DNA of 64,000 bases. Source: Amnibacterium flavum. GTDB lineage: Bacteria > Actinomycetota > Actinomycetes > Actinomycetales > Microbacteriaceae. The translations under genes and the position numbers were made by a program. Positions 3,378-47,819 of the stretch are shown one piece after another (positions within the stretch are counted from its first letter, which is position 1; every line of letters starts with the position of its first letter). A model generated the notes under the pieces. It ran no database searches. It was not told the origin of the DNA and saw nothing but the letters and a program-made list of their open reading frames with translations. The stretch is taken from assembly GCF_003097495.1 (NCBI RefSeq), contig NZ_QEOP01000001.1, positions 248,001 through 312,000 of the forward strand, in the 5' to 3' direction.

Positions 3378-4085
3378 GTGGTCGCACTCGACGGAGCAGT
3401 AGTACTGGTGACAGGCGCGGGCGGCGGCCTGGGGGTGGAGTTCGTGCGCCAGGCGCTCGAACGAGGCGCACGCAAGGTCTACGCCACGGCGCGCATCCCG
3501 CGCGAGTGGGACGACTCGCGCGTTGTGCCCCTCGCCCTGGACGTGACCGACGAGGCGAGCGTCGCCGCCGCCGTCGCCGCCGCGGGTGACACCACGATCG
3601 TCGTCAACAACGCGGGAGTCGGCGGCGCGAACTCCCTCCTCGACAGCGATCTCGCCGAGGTGCGCCGCGTGTTCGAGACCAACCTCTTCGGAGCGCTCGC
3701 CGTTGCGAAGGAGTTCGCGCCCATCCTCGCCGCGAACGGAGGCGGCGCGCTGATCGACGTGCACTCGGTCCTCAGCTGGATCGGACTCGCGGGCGGCTAC
3801 AGCGCATCCAAGGCCGCATTCTGGTCGGTCACGAACTCCCTCCGTCTCGAGCTCGCCCCGGCGGGCACCCAGGTGACCGGGGTCCACGTCGGATACACCG
3901 ACACCCCCATGACCGCGGGTGTCACCGCCCCGAAGAACGACCCCGCCGACGTCGTCCGCGACACCTACGACGGGGTGGAGGCCGGCGCGACGGAGGTCCT
4001 CGCCGACCAGCTCAGCCGCGACGTTAAGACCGGCCTCGCCGGTCCGATCGAGCGGCTCTATCCCCAGCTCAGCCCTATCAGCTGA
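3378..4085 (+). CDS. SDR-family oxidoreductase
   Basis: A classical short-chain dehydrogenase of 235 residues. The N-terminal NAD(P) motif is TGAGGGLG (about residues 11-18), the NNAG motif is VVNNAGVGG, and the catalytic pair is in YSASKAAF. A GTG start follows the purine run AGAAGGAGA at a normal distance. It is transcribed divergently from the HxlR regulator, the common arrangement in which HxlR represses an inducible detoxifying oxidoreductase. The substrate is not known. Downstream, a 12-bp perfect inverted repeat (4177-4188 with 4221-4232) may end the transcript. Confidence 0.85.
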   Translation: MVALDGAVVLVTGAGGGLGVEFVRQALERGARKVYATARIPREWDDSRVVPLALDVTDEASVAAAVAAAGDTTIVVNNAGVGGANSLLDSDLAEVRRVFETNLFGALAVAKEFAPILAANGGGALIDVHSVLSWIGLAGGYSASKAAFWSVTNSLRLELAPAGTQVTGVHVGYTDTPMTAGVTAPKNDPADVVRDTYDGVEAGATEVLADQLSRDVKTGLAGPIERLYPQLSPIS

Positions 4086-4695
4086 GCCCACTCCGCTCAG
4101 TCCAGCCCGGCGAACGCCCCCGCCGAACCCCGTTCGCCGGGCACAGCCGGTCCACTTCCCGCGAGCCGGGAGATCGGAACCGCGGCACTTGCCCCTCGAC
4201 GCGCGGCGTCGCGGCGGGAGGTGCCGCGGTTCGGTCTGCGAACGACTCCCCGGCCCGCGCGTATACACCCCGGATCGCCGGATCCGGCGGCGCGACACGC
4301 CCGAGGTGCGTCGGAGAGGGGGTCCCTCGGCAAAGTTTTCAAAATGTACCCCGTTTTCGGGTCAGTGCCCCCCACTGCACCTCAACCCACCCCTAAGAGG
4401 TGGTGCAACTGAGCCCGCCCCGGCCATGTACCCCAGAGGGGTCACAACCCCGCCACGGCTGCCTATCGCCCTCTTGACCAGTACTTTTGCTCTCCCGGAC
4501 AGCAACCCCGCGGGCGGGATCTCCCCCCGATCGGGGGTCACTTCGCGGATGGAGACAGGTCTGTCCGCCGAACGTCGGACTGGCGGATCGCTGCCAGCCG
4601 CGCCGCGCCGCCGAAACGGGCGTATCGACGGCGGTCGCGTTTGACGCCCCCGTTCGGGCGTGGTGCCATTCACTCCTGACCACAACCCCTCGACG
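4086..4695. other. 610-bp leader with clustered palindromes, no gene
   Basis: No supportable gene is seen between the SDR and the glycosyltransferase. The stretch contains a 12-bp inverted repeat GAACCGCGGCAC (4177) / GTGCCGCGGTTC (4221), ACCCC-AGA-GGGGT near 4430, the perfect palindrome CCCCCGATCGGGGG (4524-4537) and GACAGGTCTGTC (4554-4565). A patch around 4330-4360 is AT-richer than its surroundings. The likely role is a regulated promoter and leader for the polysaccharide operon. The first inverted repeat may instead be the terminator of the SDR. Confidence 0.55.
4554..4565. promoter_or_regulatory. Palindrome GACAGGTCTGTC upstream of the GT2 operon
   Basis: A perfect 12-bp dyad about 130 bp before the first candidate start of the glycosyltransferase, just after the CCCCCGATCGGGGG palindrome. 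This is a typical size for a regulator binding site. The protein that would bind is unknown. Confidence 0.35.
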
Positions 4696-6222
4696 ATGCG
4701 GGACGAACACACACGAGCCGGGGGGCAATCGTTGTTCATCTTCATCCTTCAAGTCCGCCACATGCTGGGCGGGCACCCCGAGATCTACCTCTTCGCCATC
4801 TACTCGGCGCTGATCTGGGGCCTCTGGGCGCTCAAGCTCGTCCTGTCGATGCGCTACCGGCCCTTCACCGGGGAGTTCACGGGCACGACCAGCGTCGTCG
4901 TGCCGGTCGTCGACGAACCGCTGGATCTGTTCCGCGATGTGCTCCAGCGCATGGTCGACCAGAAGCCCGGCGAGATCATCGTCGTCATCAATGGCGCCCC
5001 CAATCCGGCACTCGTCGGGGTGTGCGAGGAGTTCGCACCGGCGGTCCGCTGGGTGCACACCCCGATTCCGGGCAAGCGCAACGCCGTGATGATCGGCACG
5101 CGGATGTCGACCGGTGACATCACGGTGCTCGTCGACTCCGACACGATCTGGACGCCCGGCACGCTGACCGAGCTGGTCAAGCCGTTCGCCGACGACTCGG
5201 TCGGCGGCGTGACGACACGTCAGCGCATCCTCGAGCCCGAGCGCAGCTGGATCACCCGCTGGGCCGACTGGCTGGAGAACTCCCGGGCGCTCTACTCGAT
5301 GCCCGCGCAGAGCGTGCTCGGCCAGATCGGCTGCCTGCCCGGCCGGACCATCGCGTTCCGCCGCAACATCCTGATGCGCGTCATGGACAAGTTCATGACG
5401 CAAAAGTTCCTCGGCGTCTTCCTCGAGGTCTCCGACGACCGGACCCTGACGAACCTCACGCTCAAAGAGGGCTACCGCACCGTGTACCAGTACACGAGCC
5501 TCGTCTACACGGATGCTCCCCTGCAGGTGAAGAAGCTCTACAAGCAGCAGCTCCGCTGGGCTCGCGGCAGCCAGTACAACACCCTGCGGATGCTGCCCTG
5601 GATGCTCGGTCACGCACCGGTGCTGGCCCTGTTCTTCGTGATGGACATCATCCTTCCGTTCCTGCTGCTCGGCGTGATCGGCGGCTGGGTCTGGCGGGCG
5701 ATCGTCGGAGGCGGATACAACTTCTACTCCGACATCCTCACCACCTACGGGGTGCAGAGCGGGCTGGCCCTGGTGGTCGCCCTGATGGTCGCCTCGTCGG
5801 TGCTCAGCATGGCGATCCGGCAGCTCCGGCACCTCGCGGAGAAGCCCACCGACTTCTTCCGCCTCCCTCTCTTCATCATCGTGTCGACCGCGTTCCTGAT
5901 GCCGATCCGGATCATCGGCTTCTTCCGGATGGCGCACGCCAGCGGGTGGGGAACCCGCGCCGGTGCGTACTCGGGCGGCGATGTGGACATGAGCGACTAC
6001 GAGGCAGGCGGCACGCCGGTCGCCGGCTCGGCGTCACCTGGCGCAGCCCTCGCCCTCGAACGCACCTCGGCCGAAGGGGAAGTCCTCACCCGCGCCCGCC
6101 GCCGCGTGGCCGCCCCGCAGAAGGTGCGGAAGGGCCGCCACTACAACCCACTCGCCGCTATCCCGTACCTGATCGGATTCACGATCATCGCGCTGGAAGG
6201 ACTCCTCATTGTCTCCGCGTAA
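4696..6222 (+). CDS. Hyaluronan-synthase-like membrane glycosyltransferase (GT2)
   Basis: A processive GT2 synthase of about 508 residues. An N-terminal membrane helix (PEIYLFAIYSALIWGLWALK) precedes the GT-A domain, which has VDSDT (DxD type), LPGRTIAFRR, the acceptor/base motif SDDRTLTN and the processive QQLRWARGSQYN (QxxRW). Several C-terminal helices follow (ALFFVMDIILPFLLLGVIGG and others), then a basic tail with a final helix. This layout matches hyaluronan and type-3-capsule synthases, which polymerise and export the chain from UDP-sugars. The start is uncertain: ATG 4696 has no clear ribosome site, while TTG 4732 follows GGGGGG. It overlaps the GH26 gene and is co-transcribed with UDP-glucose dehydrogenase, which could supply UDP-glucuronate. 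Confidence 0.85.
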   Translation: MRDEHTRAGGQSLFIFILQVRHMLGGHPEIYLFAIYSALIWGLWALKLVLSMRYRPFTGEFTGTTSVVVPVVDEPLDLFRDVLQRMVDQKPGEIIVVINGAPNPALVGVCEEFAPAVRWVHTPIPGKRNAVMIGTRMSTGDITVLVDSDTIWTPGTLTELVKPFADDSVGGVTTRQRILEPERSWITRWADWLENSRALYSMPAQSVLGQIGCLPGRTIAFRRNILMRVMDKFMTQKFLGVFLEVSDDRTLTNLTLKEGYRTVYQYTSLVYTDAPLQVKKLYKQQLRWARGSQYNTLRMLPWMLGHAPVLALFFVMDIILPFLLLGVIGGWVWRAIVGGGYNFYSDILTTYGVQSGLALVVALMVASSVLSMAIRQLRHLAEKPTDFFRLPLFIIVSTAFLMPIRIIGFFRMAHASGWGTRAGAYSGGDVDMSDYEAGGTPVAGSASPGAALALERTSAEGEVLTRARRRVAAPQKVRKGRHYNPLAAIPYLIGFTIIALEGLLIVSA

Positions 6223-7648
6223 GCCATCCCGCCACTGGTGGGCGCAGTCGAGCCGCAACGTCCGGATCGGCGCCATCGGCGGGTTCATCCTGCTGGCCGG
6301 ACTAACCACCGTCAGCTACGTCATCTGGACCTCGCCCGGCAATGCGGCCGCCACCGTCGAAGCGATCGCCGAGCAGGTCGACAACCTCGACCCGCGCATC
6401 TCGTCCCTGAAGGCCGAGAACGCGGCACTCCAGCAGAAGGTCGAGGGACTGCGGGCCGAAGTGGCCAAGCGCGACCTCGCGCTGCGGGCCAAGTACACCC
6501 CGCCCACCACTCCGACGCCGGACACCGGCGTCAAGGACGACAGCAGCCTGGGAACCGCGCCGAAGGCTCCGACGGCCAAGCCGCCGACCGCCGCGAAGCC
6601 CGCGGCACCGACCACCCCGGTCGCAGCGGCCCCCGCCCCGATCACGGCCCCGCCACTGTCGGAGCTGGTGACGGCGCAGCAGCGCTACATGGGGCTGTAC
6701 ACCGAGCAGGCGCCGTTCAACTGGGCGACCTACGACGACATCGCGAGCAAGCTCGAGGTCTCGCCGTCGGTGGTCGGCTACTTCGGCGGCTGGGACGAGC
6801 CGTTCCGCGCGAACGCGGTCACCCGGGCGTGGGAGAAGGGACGCCTCCCCCTCCTGACCTGGGAGTCGCGGCCGATCAACGCCCCGAACAGCGTCATCAA
6901 CGAGCCGGATTACACCCTCCCCCGCATCATCGGGGATCCCGCGAACGGTGTCCCTGGTGCGTTCGACGACTATCTGCGGCAGTACTCACGAGACATCGTC
7001 AGCACAGGACTCCCCATGGCGATCCGGCTCGATCACGAGATGAACGGAGTCTGGTACCCCTGGGCCGAGACCACCGGCAGCGGAGCTCCGATCAACGGCA
7101 ACAGTCCCGGCGACTACGTGAAGATGTGGCGGCACGTCCACGACATCTTCGAGCAGGAGGGCGCCGGCGAGTACGTCATCTGGATCTGGGCTCCGAACAT
7201 CGTCAACAACCTGCCGGCGACGCATCAGCCGGTCGAGTATCTGGCGTCGCTCTACCCGGGAGACGAGTACGTGGACTGGGTCGGACTGTCGGGCTATCTC
7301 CGCCCGGCGTACAAGCCCGACAACGACTTCACCTTCTCCTACAGCTTCGACCGGAGCCTCAACCAGCTGCGGACGATCGCTCCCGGCAAACCGATCCTGC
7401 TGGCGGAGGTCGGCGCGTCCGAGACGGGAGGCCACAAGGTCGGTTGGGTGAACTCGATGTTCGACGCCCTCGCCAAGCCCGAGAACTCCGACGTGATCGG
7501 AATGGTCTGGTTCAACCTCGCGGTCTCGACCTACACCGAGGGAGAACTGGGCACCAACGACTGGCGGATGGACTCCCGACCGGACACCCTCGCGGCGTTC
7601 AAGACCGGGTTCGCGAGGCCCGAGCTCGAGTTCGATATCAGCCCATGA
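6209..7648 (+). CDS. Membrane-anchored GH26 glycanase (mannanase-like)
   Basis: A 479-residue type II membrane protein. A basic N terminus leads to a membrane helix (about 19-40), then a probable coiled coil (48-95), a Pro/Thr/Ala linker (95-150) and a GH26 domain. The catalytic acid/base is E277 in RLDHEMNGVWYPW and the likely nucleophile E400 in ILLAEVGAS, both intact. It starts with TTG 14 bases before the synthase stop, so translation is coupled. GH26 enzymes hydrolyse beta-mannans, mixed beta-glucans or beta-1,3-xylans. Held outside the membrane beside a synthase, this one probably trims or releases the nascent polymer, as BcsZ does for cellulose; that parallel is inference. Confidence 0.85.
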   Translation: MSPRKPSRHWWAQSSRNVRIGAIGGFILLAGLTTVSYVIWTSPGNAAATVEAIAEQVDNLDPRISSLKAENAALQQKVEGLRAEVAKRDLALRAKYTPPTTPTPDTGVKDDSSLGTAPKAPTAKPPTAAKPAAPTTPVAAAPAPITAPPLSELVTAQQRYMGLYTEQAPFNWATYDDIASKLEVSPSVVGYFGGWDEPFRANAVTRAWEKGRLPLLTWESRPINAPNSVINEPDYTLPRIIGDPANGVPGAFDDYLRQYSRDIVSTGLPMAIRLDHEMNGVWYPWAETTGSGAPINGNSPGDYVKMWRHVHDIFEQEGAGEYVIWIWAPNIVNNLPATHQPVEYLASLYPGDEYVDWVGLSGYLRPAYKPDNDFTFSYSFDRSLNQLRTIAPGKPILLAEVGASETGGHKVGWVNSMFDALAKPENSDVIGMVWFNLAVSTYTEGELGTNDWRMDSRPDTLAAFKTGFARPELEFDISP

Positions 7649-7728
7649 CCCGCGACCTGTTCACCGACCTCAAGTACCGCACCGACCCCGCAAACCCGTG
7701 GCTGCACCCACATCCAGGAGGAGAACCG

Positions 7729-9219
7729 ATGGACGACACGACACGACGCGCTGACAGTCACCACCCCGACAGCGGCGTGGAGGCGATCAGCTCCGGCGAG
7801 AGCCGGATGAGCAGCACCCGCCCCCGCATCAACGTGGTGGGCACCGGATACCTCGGTGCGACCCATGCCGCGGCGATGGCCGAGATGGGTTTCGAGGTGA
7901 TCGGCGTCGACTCCGATCCGGCGAAGGTCGCCGCGCTGAGCCGCGGCGAGGTGCCCTTCTTCGAGCCCGGCCTGCCCGAGCTGCTGAGACGTCACGTCGA
8001 GAGCGGTCGGCTCCGGTTCACGACCGACCTGGCTGAGGCGACCGCGCTGTCGGATGTGCACTTCATCTGCGTCGGCACTCCCCAGCAGGTCGCGAGCTTC
8101 GCCGCCAACCTCTCCTATGTCGAGGAGGCGACGGCCGGGGTCGCCCGCAACCTCACCCACGACGGCATCATCGTCGGCAAGTCGACGGTGCCCGTCGGGA
8201 CGGGTGAGCGGCTCCGCTCGCTCATCGCCGGGCTGGTGCCCGACGGTGTCGACGCCGAGCTGGTGTGGAATCCCGAGTTCCTGCGGGAGGGGAAGGCGGT
8301 CGAGGACACGCTGCGGCCCGACCGGATCGTCGTCGGCGGCACGTCCGACCGGTCCGAGGCGGTCCTGCGGGCCGTGTACGCGGCGCCCCTGGCGACGGGC
8401 ACGCCGATGATCGTCTGCGATCTGCCGACCGCGGAGCTGGTGAAGGTGAGCGCGAACGCGTTCCTCGCGACGAAGATCTCGTTCATCAACGCCATCGCGG
8501 AGGTCTGCGAGGCGGCCGGCGCGAACGTCTCGGTCCTCGCCGATGCGCTCGGCCACGACGCACGGATCGGACGGCAGTTCCTGAACGCTGGGCTCGGCTT
8601 CGGCGGCGGCTGCCTGCCGAAAGACATCCGCGCCCTCATGTACCGGGCCAGTGAGCTCGGCGCCTTCTCGGCCTCGTCGCTGCTGCAGCAGGTGGACGAG
8701 ATCAACATGGGACAGCGGCAGCGCATCATCGACATGACACTCGACGCCTGCGGCGGTTCGGTGCTCAACCGACGAATCGGGGTGCTGGGTGCCGCGTTCA
8801 AGCCCGACACCGACGACGTCCGCGACTCCCCCGCGCTCAATGTCGCGGCAGCCCTCCACCTGAGGGGCGCGCAGGTGGTCGTCTACGATCCCGAGGCCTC
8901 CGAGACCGCCCGGCGGATGTACCCGACGCTGAGCTACGCGAGCGAGCTCGACGACGCGGTGGCCGGGAGCGACGCACTGCTCGTGCTGACCGAGTGGCCC
9001 GAGTTCGTCGATGCCGACCCCGCCCGTCTCGCGGCGATCGCGGGCGTCCCGTCGCTGATCGACGGACGCAACTGCCTCGACCCCGCGATCTGGGCCGAGG
9101 CCGGCTGGCAGGTGCGGTCGCTCGGCCGCCCGACCGTGCACTCCGCCGTCGCCTCCACCGCGGCACCGTTCACGCGTCCGGCGTGGGCGTCCGCGGGGCG
9201 GCTCGTCGCGGCGCATTGA
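7729..9219 (+). CDS. UDP-glucose 6-dehydrogenase family protein
   Basis: A 496-residue nucleotide-sugar dehydrogenase that oxidises UDP-glucose twice to UDP-glucuronate. It shows the N-terminal Rossmann motif VVGTGYLG, STVPVGTG, NPEFLREGKA, the catalytic cysteine C295 in FGGGCLPKD, and the C-terminal UDP-binding domain with GAAFKPDTDDVRDSP. The start at 7729 is picked for AGGAGGAG seven bases upstream; a weaker in-frame ATG at 7645 overlaps the GH26 stop and would add 28 residues without family similarity. About 27 residues of disordered N terminus remain before the Rossmann fold. It is the last gene of the synthase-GH26 operon and is followed by a strong hairpin. Confidence 0.9.
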   Translation: MDDTTRRADSHHPDSGVEAISSGESRMSSTRPRINVVGTGYLGATHAAAMAEMGFEVIGVDSDPAKVAALSRGEVPFFEPGLPELLRRHVESGRLRFTTDLAEATALSDVHFICVGTPQQVASFAANLSYVEEATAGVARNLTHDGIIVGKSTVPVGTGERLRSLIAGLVPDGVDAELVWNPEFLREGKAVEDTLRPDRIVVGGTSDRSEAVLRAVYAAPLATGTPMIVCDLPTAELVKVSANAFLATKISFINAIAEVCEAAGANVSVLADALGHDARIGRQFLNAGLGFGGGCLPKDIRALMYRASELGAFSASSLLQQVDEINMGQRQRIIDMTLDACGGSVLNRRIGVLGAAFKPDTDDVRDSPALNVAAALHLRGAQVVVYDPEASETARRMYPTLSYASELDDAVAGSDALLVLTEWPEFVDADPARLAAIAGVPSLIDGRNCLDPAIWAEAGWQVRSLGRPTVHSAVASTAAPFTRPAWASAGRLVAAH

Positions 9220-9313
9220 AGACCCCGGCCGTTCGGGGGGACGGCCGGACGACGCGGTACCCGTCGGGGGGCGGGGCCGCGCCTGGCGTGACTCGTTCGA
9301 GAGTCCGCCGAAT

Positions 9314-9359
9314 GAAGAAGCTCCGGAGGCGTTCCAGGGATCGCTTCCGGAGCTTCTTC
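9314..9359. terminator. Hairpin terminator after the polysaccharide operon
   Basis: An 18-bp stem (GAAGAAGCTCCGGAGGCG with CGCTTCCGGAGCTTCTTC, one G-T mismatch) and a 10-nt loop. There is no strong T tract on either strand. Confidence 0.75.
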
Positions 9360-9434
9360 GGCAGAGGAGAACCGGGGTCAGGGATCGAGCCGGCGCACAG
9401 TGCCGGTCAGGCCGAGGACTTCCCGGTCAAGCTC

Positions 9435-9490
9435 TGCGGTCCTGCGGTCTTGCGGTCCTGCGGTCTTGCGGTCTTGCGGTCTTGCGGTCC
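9435..9490. repeat. Seven tandem 8-bp units TGCGGTCY
   Basis: Seven contiguous units of TGCGGTCC or TGCGGTCT lie in the 313-bp gap between the dehydrogenase and the convergent ADH gene. No gene is seen in the gap. Copy number is likely to vary between strains (VNTR-like). Confidence 0.85.
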
Positions 9491-9530
9491 TGCGAGAGCA
9501 GGCTCGTCCATGCGAGAGCAGGGTCGTCCT
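9491..9530. repeat. Two tandem 20-bp units next to the ADH stop codon
   Basis: Two copies of TGCGAGAGCAGGSTCGTCCW abut each other and end two bases before the stop codon of the ADH gene on the minus strand. Confidence 0.8.
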
Positions 9531-9532
9531 GA

Positions 9533-10630
9533 TCAGGACAGGCCCGACGTGATCACCACTCGGGTCACATCCGGGTCCTTGAGGGCGTCGTAGCCCTCGT
9601 TGACGCCGTCGAGCGCGATCTCACGAGACATGAGGTCGTCGAGGTTGAAGCGACCCTGCAGGTAGAGGTCTGCGTAGAGCGGGATGTCGTGCTTCGGGGT
9701 CGTCGAGCCCATGTAAACGCCCTGGATGCGCTTCTGCGTGCCGATCAGTCCGATGGTCAGGAGGGGCAGCGTGGCCGACGGGTCGATGATGCCGATCAGG
9801 TAGAGACCGCCGCCGGGGCGGATCATCTCGAGTCCCGACGCGGTGACCGCGGGGATCCCGACGAAATCGAACGCAGCGTCCGCACCGCGACCGGTGATCG
9901 CGAGCACCTCGGCGACGGCGTCGACCTTCGTCGAGTTGATCGTGTGAGTCGCCCCGAAGCGCTTCGCCTTCTCGAGCTTGTCGTCGGCGACGTCGACCGC
10001 GATGATCTTCGTCGCGCCGGCGATGACGGCCCCGTTGATCGCGTTGAGGCCCACTCCGCCCGCACCGATGATGACGACGGAGTCGCCCGCCTGCGTGTTC
10101 GAGGTGTTGATGACGGATCCGGCGCCGGTCACGACGCCGCAGCCGAGGAGGGCGGCCTGCGGGAACGGGATCGCGTCGCTCACCTTGACGAGCTGGTTCT
10201 CGTGGATGAGCGCCTGCTGCGCGAATCCGCCGAGACCGAAGACCTGCTCGATCTTCTCGCCGTCGCCGGCGGTGACACGGGGTGCGTCGTCCGCGTGGCG
10301 GAGGGTCTCCTCGGGGTGCTCGCACTGGAAGGTGCGGCCGGTGAGGCAGGCTTCGCATTTGCCGCAGGACTGGACGAGGCATCCGACGACGTGGTCGCCC
10401 ACGGCGAATTCCGTGACCCCCGGGCCGATGGCGGTGACGACCCCGGCGACCTCGTGGCCGAGCAGCATGGGCAGCGGGGCGCCCATCTCATTCCGGGAGA
10501 AGGTGAGGTCGGTGTGGCACAGGCCCGACGCCTTGACGTCGAGCAGAACCTCTCGGCCGATCGGGTCGGCGAGGGCGACGTCCTCCGTGACGAAGCCTGC
10601 GCCGATCTCGCGCACGAGTGTGGCTTTCAT
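9533..10630 (-). CDS. Zinc-dependent alcohol dehydrogenase, class III-like
   Basis: A 365-residue MDR alcohol dehydrogenase. The catalytic zinc ligands lie in ASGLCHTDL and LLGHEVAGVV, the structural-zinc cysteines in SCGKCEACLTGRTFQC, and the NAD motif is IGAGGVGLN. The sequence resembles NAD- or mycothiol-dependent aldehyde/alcohol dehydrogenases of actinobacteria (AdhC/Rxyl type); the cofactor thiol cannot be assigned. The start at 10630 has AGGAAC seven bases upstream; an in-frame ATG five codons earlier is less well placed. It follows the TetR regulator on the same strand with a 24-base gap, so the regulator probably controls its own operon including this enzyme. Confidence 0.88.
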   Translation of the reverse strand: MKATLVREIGAGFVTEDVALADPIGREVLLDVKASGLCHTDLTFSRNEMGAPLPMLLGHEVAGVVTAIGPGVTEFAVGDHVVGCLVQSCGKCEACLTGRTFQCEHPEETLRHADDAPRVTAGDGEKIEQVFGLGGFAQQALIHENQLVKVSDAIPFPQAALLGCGVVTGAGSVINTSNTQAGDSVVIIGAGGVGLNAINGAVIAGATKIIAVDVADDKLEKAKRFGATHTINSTKVDAVAEVLAITGRGADAAFDFVGIPAVTASGLEMIRPGGGLYLIGIIDPSATLPLLTIGLIGTQKRIQGVYMGSTTPKHDIPLYADLYLQGRFNLDDLMSREIALDGVNEGYDALKDPDVTRVVITSGLS

Positions 10631-13232: not shown

Positions 13233-14654
13233 ATGATCGACCGCCTGGCGACGGGAGACATCCTCGGCTCCGTCCTGGACGACCGCTACACCGTCCACGA
13301 GCTGATCGGCCGGGGCGGGATGGCCTCGGTGTACCGAGCCTGGGATGCGGAGCTCCACCGCTCCGTCGCGATCAAGGTGCTGCGCGGCGAGGCCGATTCC
13401 GGCCCCGACGCGCGGCGCCGTGTGCGCGAGGCTCGGGCCGCCGCCGCCATCAACCATCCGGCTCTGGTGACCCTGTACGACGCGGTCATCCGGGACGATC
13501 GCTCCTACCTCGTGATGGAGCTGATCGACGGGGCGACTCTGCGTGCGCAGATCGCATCGGGCCGACTGGACTCCCGGGACGTCGCTGCGATCGCGCACGA
13601 CCTCGCCGACGGTCTTCACGCGGTGCACGCGGGTGGCGTCATCCACCGTGACATCAAACCCGCGAACATCCTGCTCGCGCGAACGACCCTTCCGGAGCGG
13701 CCCTTCCGGGCCAAGCTGTCCGACTTCGGAATCGCGCACGTCGTCGACGCCACCCGGGTCACCTCACCCGGACTGTTCCTCGGCACCGCGAGCTACGTCA
13801 GCCCTGAGCAGGCGCGCGGCGAGGAGGCCGCGGCGCCCGCCGACATCTACGCACTGGGACTGACCCTCCTCGAAGCCCTCACCGGCACACCCGCATTCGT
13901 CGGCTCTCCGTTGGAGGTCATGACCGCGAGGCTGGTGCGCGACCCCTCTGTTCCCGCCTGGCTCGGGTCCGAGTGGTCCGCGTTGCTGACGCGGATGACG
14001 GATCGCGACCCGAGCGCACGGCCGACGGCGATCGAGGTCGCTGCCGCGGCCCGTGCGATCCCCGCCGCCGACCGCCATCCCGGCGACCTCTCGGTCAGCA
14101 CAGGCGCACTCGAGATGGGCACCCAGGAGATGAGCACCCAGGAGATGAGCACCCGGGAGATGAGCACCGTGGCGCTGAGCGCCGACGAACTCAGCACCGC
14201 AGCGACCTCCCCGACCATTTCGACCGAGAACCGCGCGACAAGAAACTCAGCAACAGCGAACTCGGCAACAGCGAACTCAGCAACAGAGACCGCAGCGACC
14301 GAGCCGTTCGATGACGGCCATCCGACGCTCCTTCTTCCTACGACCCCGACGCCCCCTGGGGCCGACGACCGATCGACCGACCTCGACGACCTCGCGATGG
14401 CCACCGCCGATCGACAGGCGGAGACCGCGGGCGGGCCGACGGAGACCGAGCGGTCGCCGCGAACACGCCGCCGCCTCACCTGGACCCTCGCCGTCACCCT
14501 CGTCGCACTCACGCTGATCGCGGTGAGTCTCCTCACCCTGCCCCGACCCGCCGCCGGGGAGAGCACGGAACTCCAGCCGAGCCCCTCCCTCCCCAGTCTC
14601 GCGCCACCGCTCGACGACGACCTCCGCGATCTCCTCGAGCAGGTGTCGCCGTGA
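13233..14654 (+). CDS. Ser/Thr protein kinase with repeat linker and one membrane helix
   Basis: A 473-residue PknB-type kinase. The glycine loop is IGRGGMASVY (25-34), the ATP lysine K48 (VAIKVL), the catalytic loop HRDIKPANIL (138-147) and DFG at 164-166; all key residues are present. The kinase domain ends near 275. A Ser/Thr-rich linker contains two tandem repeat blocks: EM(S/G)T(Q/R) units around 293-311 and NSATA units around 332-351. A membrane helix (about 412-432) leaves a short extracellular Pro/Ser tail without PASTA domains. It overlaps the lipoprotein gene (GTGA), suggesting a paired envelope signal device. Confidence 0.9.
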   Translation: MIDRLATGDILGSVLDDRYTVHELIGRGGMASVYRAWDAELHRSVAIKVLRGEADSGPDARRRVREARAAAAINHPALVTLYDAVIRDDRSYLVMELIDGATLRAQIASGRLDSRDVAAIAHDLADGLHAVHAGGVIHRDIKPANILLARTTLPERPFRAKLSDFGIAHVVDATRVTSPGLFLGTASYVSPEQARGEEAAAPADIYALGLTLLEALTGTPAFVGSPLEVMTARLVRDPSVPAWLGSEWSALLTRMTDRDPSARPTAIEVAAAARAIPAADRHPGDLSVSTGALEMGTQEMSTQEMSTREMSTVALSADELSTAATSPTISTENRATRNSATANSATANSATETAATEPFDDGHPTLLLPTTPTPPGADDRSTDLDDLAMATADRQAETAGGPTETERSPRTRRRLTWTLAVTLVALTLIAVSLLTLPRPAAGESTELQPSPSLPSLAPPLDDDLRDLLEQVSP

Positions 14655-47081: not shown

Positions 47082-47819
47082 TCAGTCGAGGTCCGCGCTC
47101 TTCTTCCGGTTGTGCAGCGTGACCGCGACGGCCACGATGCCGAACAGAGCGAGAAGCGTGAGGACGAGGATGGGGATCAGCGGATTGGTCGGAGCCGTCG
47201 CCGCAGCAGGCGTCGCTGCCGAGTCGATGCCGTCGACCTCGACCGCGAGAGTGTCGAGGGCGCCGAGGCTCGAGGTGCCGGCGGCGGCGGTGGGGCTCGG
47301 AGTGGGCGTCGGAACCGCGATGGCGGGCGTCGTCGGGGCCGGCGTCGGCACGACGGCGGGGACCGAGCTGGTCGAGCGGCGCGGAGTCGTGGTCGTCGAA
47401 CGGACGATCGGGGCCGGGACGACGGGGTTGCTCACGGGAGGCGCGGGATTCTCGGCGGCGGGGGTGCTCGGCTGAGGCTCGGGCTCGGTCACCGGGGGCT
47501 CGCTGGGCACAGGCGAGGTGCTCGGATCAATCGGGCCAGTGGGGCCAGTGGGATCAGTCGGGTCCGAGGGATCGGTCGGACCAGTCGGGTCCGAGGGATC
47601 GGTCGGATCAGCTGGATCCGTGGGACCAGTCGGATCGCTTGGATTGGTCGGGTCCGTCGGATCGACGACCGCCGAGACGACCCCGCCGACGATGTCATCG
47701 ACCGGGAGCAGGTCGTCGAGACCGAGTGCCGACGCCGAAGCGGCGGGGGCGAAGACGGTGGCGGAGATGACGAATCCCACTGCCAGGGCGACGGCGCGAC
47801 GGCGAGTGCTGATCCGCAT
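47082..47819 (-). CDS. Exported cell-surface protein with DPTDPT repeat stalk
   Basis: A 245-residue protein with a Sec signal peptide (RRRAVALAVGFVISATVFAPAASA), then a stretch of about 60 residues made of Asp-Pro-(Thr/Ser) units (DPTDPTNPSDPTGPTDPADP and similar), a Pro/Thr/Ser-rich region, and a C-terminal membrane helix (NPLIPILVLTLLALFGIVAVAVTL) followed by HNRKKSADLD. This is a wall-spanning stalk anchored by its C terminus; no LPXTG motif is seen. The start follows AAGGAAG. The DNA repeats are 6-18 bp units. No enzymatic domain is present. Confidence 0.8.
   Translation of the reverse strand: MRISTRRRAVALAVGFVISATVFAPAASASALGLDDLLPVDDIVGGVVSAVVDPTDPTNPSDPTGPTDPADPTDPSDPTGPTDPSDPTDPTGPTGPIDPSTSPVPSEPPVTEPEPQPSTPAAENPAPPVSNPVVPAPIVRSTTTTPRRSTSSVPAVVPTPAPTTPAIAVPTPTPSPTAAAGTSSLGALDTLAVEVDGIDSAATPAAATAPTNPLIPILVLTLLALFGIVAVAVTLHNRKKSADLD

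Follow-up and report, generated by a model that had tools for sequence, protein, structure and literature searches.

A conserved GT2–GH26–UDP-glucose 6-dehydrogenase operon of Amnibacterium flavum and related actinobacteria, a candidate system for a glucuronate-containing exopolysaccharide

Operons that couple a polysaccharide synthase to a hydrolase are well known, as the available sections of two reports describe (PMC7710045, PMC7112194). Precedents include the Bcs system with BcsZ (GH8) and the clostridial Ccs system with CcsZ (GH5), each of which joins a GT2 synthase to a co-encoded endo-glycanase (available text of PMC7710045). We analyzed a stretch of 64,000 nucleotides from Amnibacterium flavum (contig NZ_QEOP01000001.1, positions 248,001 to 312,000; hereafter the window) in which three consecutive genes encode a membrane GT2 synthase, a GH26 enzyme and a UDP-glucose 6-dehydrogenase (UGD; Table 1). 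A membrane GT2 with a co-encoded glycan-processing enzyme places this locus among the synthase-dependent exopolysaccharide operons in the broad sense. It differs from Bcs and Ccs in having GH26 in place of GH8 or GH5 and in carrying UGD. The GT2 has no Pfam match to PilZ, and none of the three genes resembles bcsB or bcsC, so the locus lacks the PilZ domain match and BcsB partner by which a Bcs cellulose synthase is recognized. Our analysis suggests that the operon probably belongs to the synthase-dependent type and makes a beta-linked, glucuronate-containing exopolysaccharide that the GH26 enzyme cuts, a reading that is well motivated by the comparisons below.

The closest described system is the wps-1 cluster of Actinoplanes missouriensis, an actinomycete polysaccharide cluster with a GT2 (WpsA) and a GH26 protein (WpsE) that is needed for normal sporangia (PMC13390465, available text). 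It comprises 11 genes of a predicted Wzx/Wzy-dependent pathway, and its authors knew of no characterized Wzx/Wzy cluster with a GH26 enzyme (PMC13390465). Unlike the window locus, wps-1 is not a compact processive-synthase operon, and the available portion of that report mentions no UGD. The Pga system (PNAG) shares the logic of a synthase with a hydrolase and differs in GT2 clade, hydrolase family and sugar. The original prediction knew of no described GT2-GH26-UGD system, and our literature search found no description of one either; the search covered open-licence papers, some in partial text, and is accordingly weak evidence.

The original prediction had proposed conservation of the gene order as a check, and the order proved to be widely kept. 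In a sample of 299 genomes of the family Microbacteriaceae, the GT2 (called at E ≤1e-60) was present in 50 and GH26 (called at E ≤1e-20) in 66. We read all 50 GT2 loci: GH26 was adjacent in every one, and UGD came next in 49, the exception being L021. A protein search of named genomes yielded 20 loci, including ones from Microbacteriaceae, from Cellulomonas and its relatives and from several metagenome-assembled genomes. The GT2 gene lay directly upstream of GH26 in 19 of these (L043 begins at GH26) and UGD directly downstream in 16; L032, L039 and L045 end at GH26, and L043 has no UGD within 8 kb past GH26. Four of 296 genomes sampled evenly across the class carried the GT2, all with a GH26 neighbor, and UGD was linked in G000, in G345 and, as a gene truncated by the end of the contig, in G060, and not in G040. 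The trio thus occurs in Cellulomonadaceae as well, and G345 and G060 lie outside the order. Because the order and the gene overlap described below are kept in relatives, the association of the three genes is far beyond chance.

The operon also occupies different genomic sites. When neighbors were clustered, using Pfam matches on representatives for their names, GT2, GH26 and UGD were the only families common to all sites compared. Thirteen loci adjoin glutamine synthetase (glnA) and GlnE genes, five Cellulomonas loci adjoin ClpB, the Actinotalea and Pseudactinotalea loci are at another site, and the window is at yet another. Plasmid pTCL of Curtobacterium sp. TC1 carries the trio too, annotated as a GT2, a glycosyl hydrolase and a UDP-glucose/GDP-mannose dehydrogenase. 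The A. flavum genome (3.57 Mb, assembled in 13 contigs) has a single match to PF02156, a profile that found matches in 2 of 14 control genomes. Because GH26 searches of eight congeners gave no match better than 7.3e-4, the operon is sporadic within its own genus. Of the flanking genes, the SDR neighbor has a close relative (76%) in a single congener (G001); the relatives of the ADH neighbor are just 37-39% identical. The three genes are a conserved unit of polysaccharide-synthase type that moves among sites.

The GH26 gene starts inside the synthase gene, as had been predicted. Its TTG start overlaps the GT2 gene in 48 of the 50 loci from the family, by 8 nt (38 loci), 14 nt (7) or 17 nt (3), and a Shine-Dalgarno-like sequence precedes the TTG in 45 of those 48. 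The two exceptions are L021, which has an ATG without overlap, and L137, which is interrupted by N. A single-frame GT2-GH26 fusion in L137 was rejected as an assembly artefact, as the frame crosses the stretch of N. Gene overlap is ordinary in itself, but its conservation together with a TTG start is notable, and a weak start kept within the synthase gene suggests that GH26 is made in a fixed, low ratio to the synthase.

All three enzymes carry the motifs and catalytic residues with which they were originally described. The GT2 open frame spans 4660-6222; because homologs begin at the residue encoded by the TTG at 4732, the protein is probably 496 amino acids long. It contains DSDT (residue 135), SDDRTLTN (234), QQLRW (272) and WGTR (406), and with these the DxD, (G/S)DD (SDD, 234-236) and QxxRW (272-276) motifs, which are common to many GT2s and so extend beyond the hyaluronan synthases (HAS). 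The structural model (mean pLDDT 75.5) shows a disordered stretch and then a C-terminal helix (473-495) that probably spans the membrane. In a profile search of solved proteins, hyaluronan synthases ranked first (5.5e-20), followed by the mannosyltransferase PcManGT (1.4e-6), and BcsA was absent at E within 0.1. Foldseek likewise ranked HAS first (1.4e-18 to 1.2e-15), then PcManGT (1.2e-12), BcsA (1.7e-11) and chitin synthases (1.8e-10).

The description of this synthase as hyaluronan-synthase-like therefore stood for the fold and failed for identity. Class I HAS is the nearest solved fold and shares WGTR with the window GT2. Lys177 and Arg341 of CvHAS, which sandwich the glucuronate carboxylate (PMC12987647, available text), align with K115 and R275 of the window GT2; other GT2s share both. 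The two are nonetheless distant, as the window GT2 scores 66 bits against XlHAS1, compared with 262 bits for L165, a HAS-like GT2 from our phylum search; it lacks the HAS Arg348 and the SGP motif, and its operon adds GH26. At the position of that motif, the clade of the window GT2 has CLPGR (15 of 15 filled rows), while L165 has CVSGP, L048 CCSGP and NodC CCCGP; the GT2s of the beta-helix loci described below have CLSGR (4) or CISGR (1). All 16 rows of this clade in the GT2 alignment also retain RW(A/S)RGSQY, and the window form, RWARG, resembles E. coli BcsA in that alignment. BcsA was just 17% filled in the GT2 tree, where we left the placement of BcsA and other long branches unused and relied on motifs. 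The window GT2 is HAS-like in fold and is not a HAS; its fold suggests that it may be processive.

The GH26 assignment exceeds the Pfam cut-off of 20.2 bits (Table 1). Both catalytic glutamates, E277 and E400, were invariant across the alignment and a further row listing, and E277 was also invariant among additional GH26 genes. The AlphaFold model (mean pLDDT 83.8) has helices at residues 15-41, 50-58 and 60-95 and a barrel-type domain, predicted with good confidence, from about residue 150, and E277 lies three residues past the strand at 270-274 and E400 inside a later strand, in keeping with the GH26 glutamate pair on strands 4 and 7. A low-confidence linker falls within 97-129 (pLDDT <50 at 97-117 and 122-129), so that the model agrees with the predicted outside tether of helix, coiled coil and linker. 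An NCBIfam match to 'major capsid protein' over residues 46-194 (1.2e-4, 21.5 bits, cut-off 75) was disregarded.

The link to plant mannan in the original prediction did not hold. By sequence, the nearest solved protein is CtLic26A, a lichenase, that is, a beta-1,3-1,4-glucanase (phmmer 4.7e-23), followed by Muricauda GH26A (2.6e-8) and entries named mannanase (2.2e-7 or weaker); by Foldseek, CtLic26A (1.2e-22) again precedes AlXyn26A (3.0e-12) and mannanases (about 4e-12). Because the lichenase is much nearer on both counts, we rejected a mannanase identity. CtLic26A (PDB 2bv9, 2bvd, 2cip) shares the HExNG.WYPWA motif with the window GH26, which differs in having Arg365 in place of the GYNW tryptophan, a membrane anchor and coupling to a synthase.

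This tryptophan-to-arginine change follows UGD linkage. Residue 365 directly follows the strand at 357-364 of the model and would therefore lie at the catalytic end of the barrel; the corresponding CtLic26A tryptophan comes after strand 6. In a tree set of 75 GH26 rows (six duplicate loci were removed and near-identical rows remain, e.g. L046/L151 and L027-L029), the position was Arg in 62 of 62 UGD-linked rows and Trp in all six rows not linked to GT2. None of 11 further GT2-unlinked GH26 genes had Arg (Trp in eight, Phe, Thr and Ser in one each), which brings the total to 0 of 17. This extra set consisted of L024-L026, the small loci L012-L015, the second GH26 of L157 and plasmid GH26s, with L013 and L025, and L014 and L026, counted once as the same genes. 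The plasmid genes L177, L179, L181 and L182 have no GT2 annotated alongside, and a GT2 search of the unannotated plasmid locus L178 gave no match. Sixteen genomes of the family have GH26 without GT2, and we read wide stretches in five of them (G019, G351, G429, G435 and G496).

Arg365 was also absent from the four GT2-GH26 loci without a visible UGD (L020, L021, L166 and L180), of which L166 and L180 have Trp, and it was present in the three loci whose contigs end at GH26. L020, with neither UGD nor Arg, is sister to L056, with both (SH-aLRT 100). Position 221 was more variable: Arg in 47 of the 62 UGD-linked rows and Q, L, T, K, A or V in the rest, with Trp in all six unlinked rows. The form with Arg365 and UGD belongs to the clade of the window, and the tracking of UGD linkage by Arg365 supports a uronate-containing product. 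In L020 (10114-12228), an acyltransferase-3/SGNH protein is encoded directly 5' of the GT2-GH26 pair, and acylation of a polymer is possible there.

The UGD scored 423.6 bits against TIGR03026 (NCBIfam cut-off 189.8) and has the catalytic Cys295 in GGGCLPKD. Its best solved match is the UDP-glucose dehydrogenase 4a7p (9.1e-105, 355 bits), compared with 193 bits for GDP-mannose dehydrogenase, and it scored 398.4 against the TuaD equivalog model, under the cut-off of 700. Each of the 16 genomes that we searched gave a UGD match, among them seven congeners in which no GH26 match surpassed 7.3e-4. G011 and G040, in which GT2-GH26 has no linked UGD, possess one elsewhere in the genome. In the genomes searched, full-length operon UGDs are 59-74% identical to the window UGD, and the best copies elsewhere 52-58% (one exception outside the operon is a 77-residue piece at 59% in G060). 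Because the operon copies differ from the others in this way, the operon carries its own, extra UGD. Such a dedicated copy, together with the UGD genes of sister operons, supports a uronate polymer.

These sister operons came from a sample of 396 genomes of the phylum, 13 of which had a GT2 match at E ≤1e-25; we read those loci and two paralogues (L156 and L174). In five loci (L156, L161, L162, L163 and L174), right-handed beta-helix proteins accompany a related GT2; for L174, this was concluded because the locus is nearly identical to L156. A full UGD is present in L156, L161 and L174, whose GT2s have CLSGR rather than CLPGR, and beta-helix proteins stand where the window has GH26 (Table 1). 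L163 has a weak UGD match (3e-20) 4 kb off and L162 none. A nucleotide sugar dehydrogenase adjoins the GT2 in L170 and L172; none was seen at L165, L167, L168, L169, L171 or L173. On the Lactococcus plasmid pUCCL637C (L048, 1105-3522), a nucleotide sugar dehydrogenase precedes a HAS/NodC-like GT2 (32% identical), a pair that is possibly a two-gene acidic polysaccharide unit.

Lichenase-like GH26 enzymes also accompany GT2s of other clades. In L166 (3-2943, 36% GC), GT2 and GH26 overlap by 4 nt, and the next gene, truncated where the contig stops, encodes a polysaccharide deacetylase, a point of resemblance to Pga. In L180 (2708-6789), on Deinococcus taeanensis plasmid p_TS293_4 and thus outside the phylum, a GH16 gene, a gene for a protein without a Pfam match, a GT2 gene and a gene for a lichenase-like GH26 follow one another, the last three joined by 4-nt overlaps. 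As no UGD was seen in L166 or L180, a GT2-GH26 pairing does not by itself imply uronate. The distribution suggests that a lichenase-like GH26 was probably coupled to a GT2 more than once independently.

Gene order, linkage, catalytic residues, fold families and the Trp-to-Arg pattern are read from the sequences themselves. What the operon makes, how the product is secreted, what GH26 acts on and what the arginine does we infer as follows. UGD would make UDP-glucuronate for a beta-linked polymer. The GH26 enzyme would sit at the outer face of the membrane, held by its helix, coiled coil and linker, and act as an endo-acting retaining glycosidase that cuts the acidic polymer at or near its exit, and this cutting would set chain length or release the polymer. 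Arg365, in place of the lichenase tryptophan, may contact uronate carboxylates. A broader proposal is that the operon represents an undescribed class of synthase operon for a glucuronate-containing beta-exopolysaccharide, present in Microbacteriaceae, Cellulomonadaceae and a small number of other actinobacteria, that its GH26 is the first adapted to an acidic polymer by a Trp-to-Arg change next to the active site, and that the operon forms a single branch within a GT2 clade with a tendency to keep UGD while swapping its processing enzyme (GH26 or beta-helix protein). We offer this tentatively and judge its chances to be a little short of even.

Several observations weigh against a glucuronate-containing product. 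L020 and L021 retain GT2-GH26 without a linked UGD, and L043 has Arg365 with no UGD in the locus. GH26 pairs with other GT2s where no UGD was seen (L166 and L180). Arg348 (CvHAS numbering), which is conserved among bacterial and eukaryotic HAS (PMC12987647, available text), is replaced in the window GT2 by Tyr282, six residues past the Trp of QxxRW. Arg221 also occurs in the GT2-unlinked L182 and L026 and is not diagnostic. Finally, few independent events lie behind the contrast between Arg365 and UGD linkage, so that the contrast is a lead and not proof.

L020 and L021, which lack a linked UGD, would fit a neutral mixed-linkage system, in which the GT2 makes a beta-1,3-1,4-glucan that GH26 trims, and UGD acts only to divert UDP-glucose or to supply a different polymer. 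Some bacteria do have GT2 synthases of (1,3;1,4)-beta-glucan (PMC10374906, available text), and the nearness of GH26 to a lichenase and the BcsA-like RWARG point the same way. Against this, UGD adjoins GT2-GH26 in 49 of the 50 synthase-bearing genomes of the family even though a UGD also occurs elsewhere in the genomes searched, the lichenase tryptophan is arginine in every UGD-linked row, and the sister GT2s carry UGD too; we consider a neutral glucan unlikely. Hyaluronan or a close relative, with the GT2 as a bacterial HAS and GH26 as a hyaluronidase, would account for the rank of HAS in both the profile and the fold searches and for WGTR. UGD partners HAS in streptococcal has operons. The low score against XlHAS1, Tyr282 and CLPGR all argue against hyaluronan, and a two-glutamate retaining GH26 with GlcNAc at subsite -1 would presumably be unusual, which makes this product highly doubtful.

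For the GH26 enzyme itself, a role as a transglycosylase, or as an extracellular polymer-binding export partner that does no trimming, is quite improbable. A retaining fold can transglycosylate, and a tether with a conserved overlap fits a partner held at a fixed ratio to the synthase; however, both glutamates are invariant, the nearest solved relative is an endo-hydrolase, and nothing specific points to transfer rather than hydrolysis. That GH26 genes without a GT2 neighbor occur in the same family might suggest a secreted plant-glycan hydrolase that merely came to lie next to an unrelated polymer operon. Such a coincidence is nearly refuted by conservation, given the adjacency in 50 of 50 loci, the overlapping TTG start in 48 and the presence of the trio at several genomic sites, with the six unlinked GH26s of the tree set apart by a branch, and we find it scarcely credible.

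The operon gives Gram-positive actinobacteria a compact and recognizable synthase-dependent polysaccharide system with three testable enzymes. If its GH26 cuts a uronate polymer, the specificity of the family would extend beyond the activities for which its solved members are named (mannan, lichenan and beta-1,3-xylan), and the enzyme would be a tool for acidic glycans. The existence of two alternative processing partners within a single synthase clade also provides a natural experiment on the coevolution of a polymer with its trimming enzyme.

Table 1. Features of the operon in the window, and coordinates of the sister operons within their own loci
Feature	Position	Strand	Remarks
Upstream region	4086..4731	+	Between SDR gene and GT2 start; presumed promoter location, none identified
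GT2 membrane polysaccharide synthase	4732..6222	+	496 aa, TTG start; PF13641 82.2 bits
GT2/GH26 gene overlap, 14 nt	6209..6222	+	GH26 start is TTG 6209
Membrane-anchored GH26, predicted extracellular	6209..7648	+	479 aa; PF02156 49.1 bits
GH26 N-terminal helix, residues 15-41, taken as membrane anchor	6251..6331	+	Model helix; hydrophobic by reading
GH26 long helix, residues 60-95, probable coiled coil, then Pro/Ala/Thr linker	6386..6493	+	Model
Arg221 codon	6869..6871	+	After strand 213-219; alone not diagnostic
Glu277 codon, predicted acid/base	7037..7039	+	Invariant in GH26 alignment
Arg365 codon	7301..7303	+	Directly past strand 357-364; CtLic26A has Trp here
Glu400 codon, predicted nucleophile	7406..7408	+	In strand 396-403; invariant in GH26 alignment
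UGD (UDP-glucose 6-dehydrogenase)	7729..9219	+	496 aa, ATG behind AGGAGG; Cys295 codon 8611-8613
GT2, two right-handed beta-helix proteins and UGD	L156 4359-10126; L174 4501-10407; L161 1518-7394		Lyase- or epimerase-like fold replaces GH26

Position 4086 is merely the first base past the neighboring SDR gene (3378-4085), and a GC3-based gene caller found no gene from there to the GT2 frame. The upstream region gave no Rfam match, a riboswitch was not found there, and no sigma-70-like promoter or terminator was matched within 4000-9600. The best UGD start lies 80 nt past the GH26 stop.

Three repeat-containing features were observed elsewhere in the window. Just 3' of the operon, at 9434-9494, an 8-bp tandem repeat (CTGCGGTC) is present in 7.6 copies. 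At 13233-14654, a gene encodes a protein with a protein kinase domain (PF00069), in which a 15-bp tandem repeat (14112-14168) gives an EMSTQ/EMSTR-type repeat. An array of degenerate 27/45-bp tandem repeats occupies 47522-47664.

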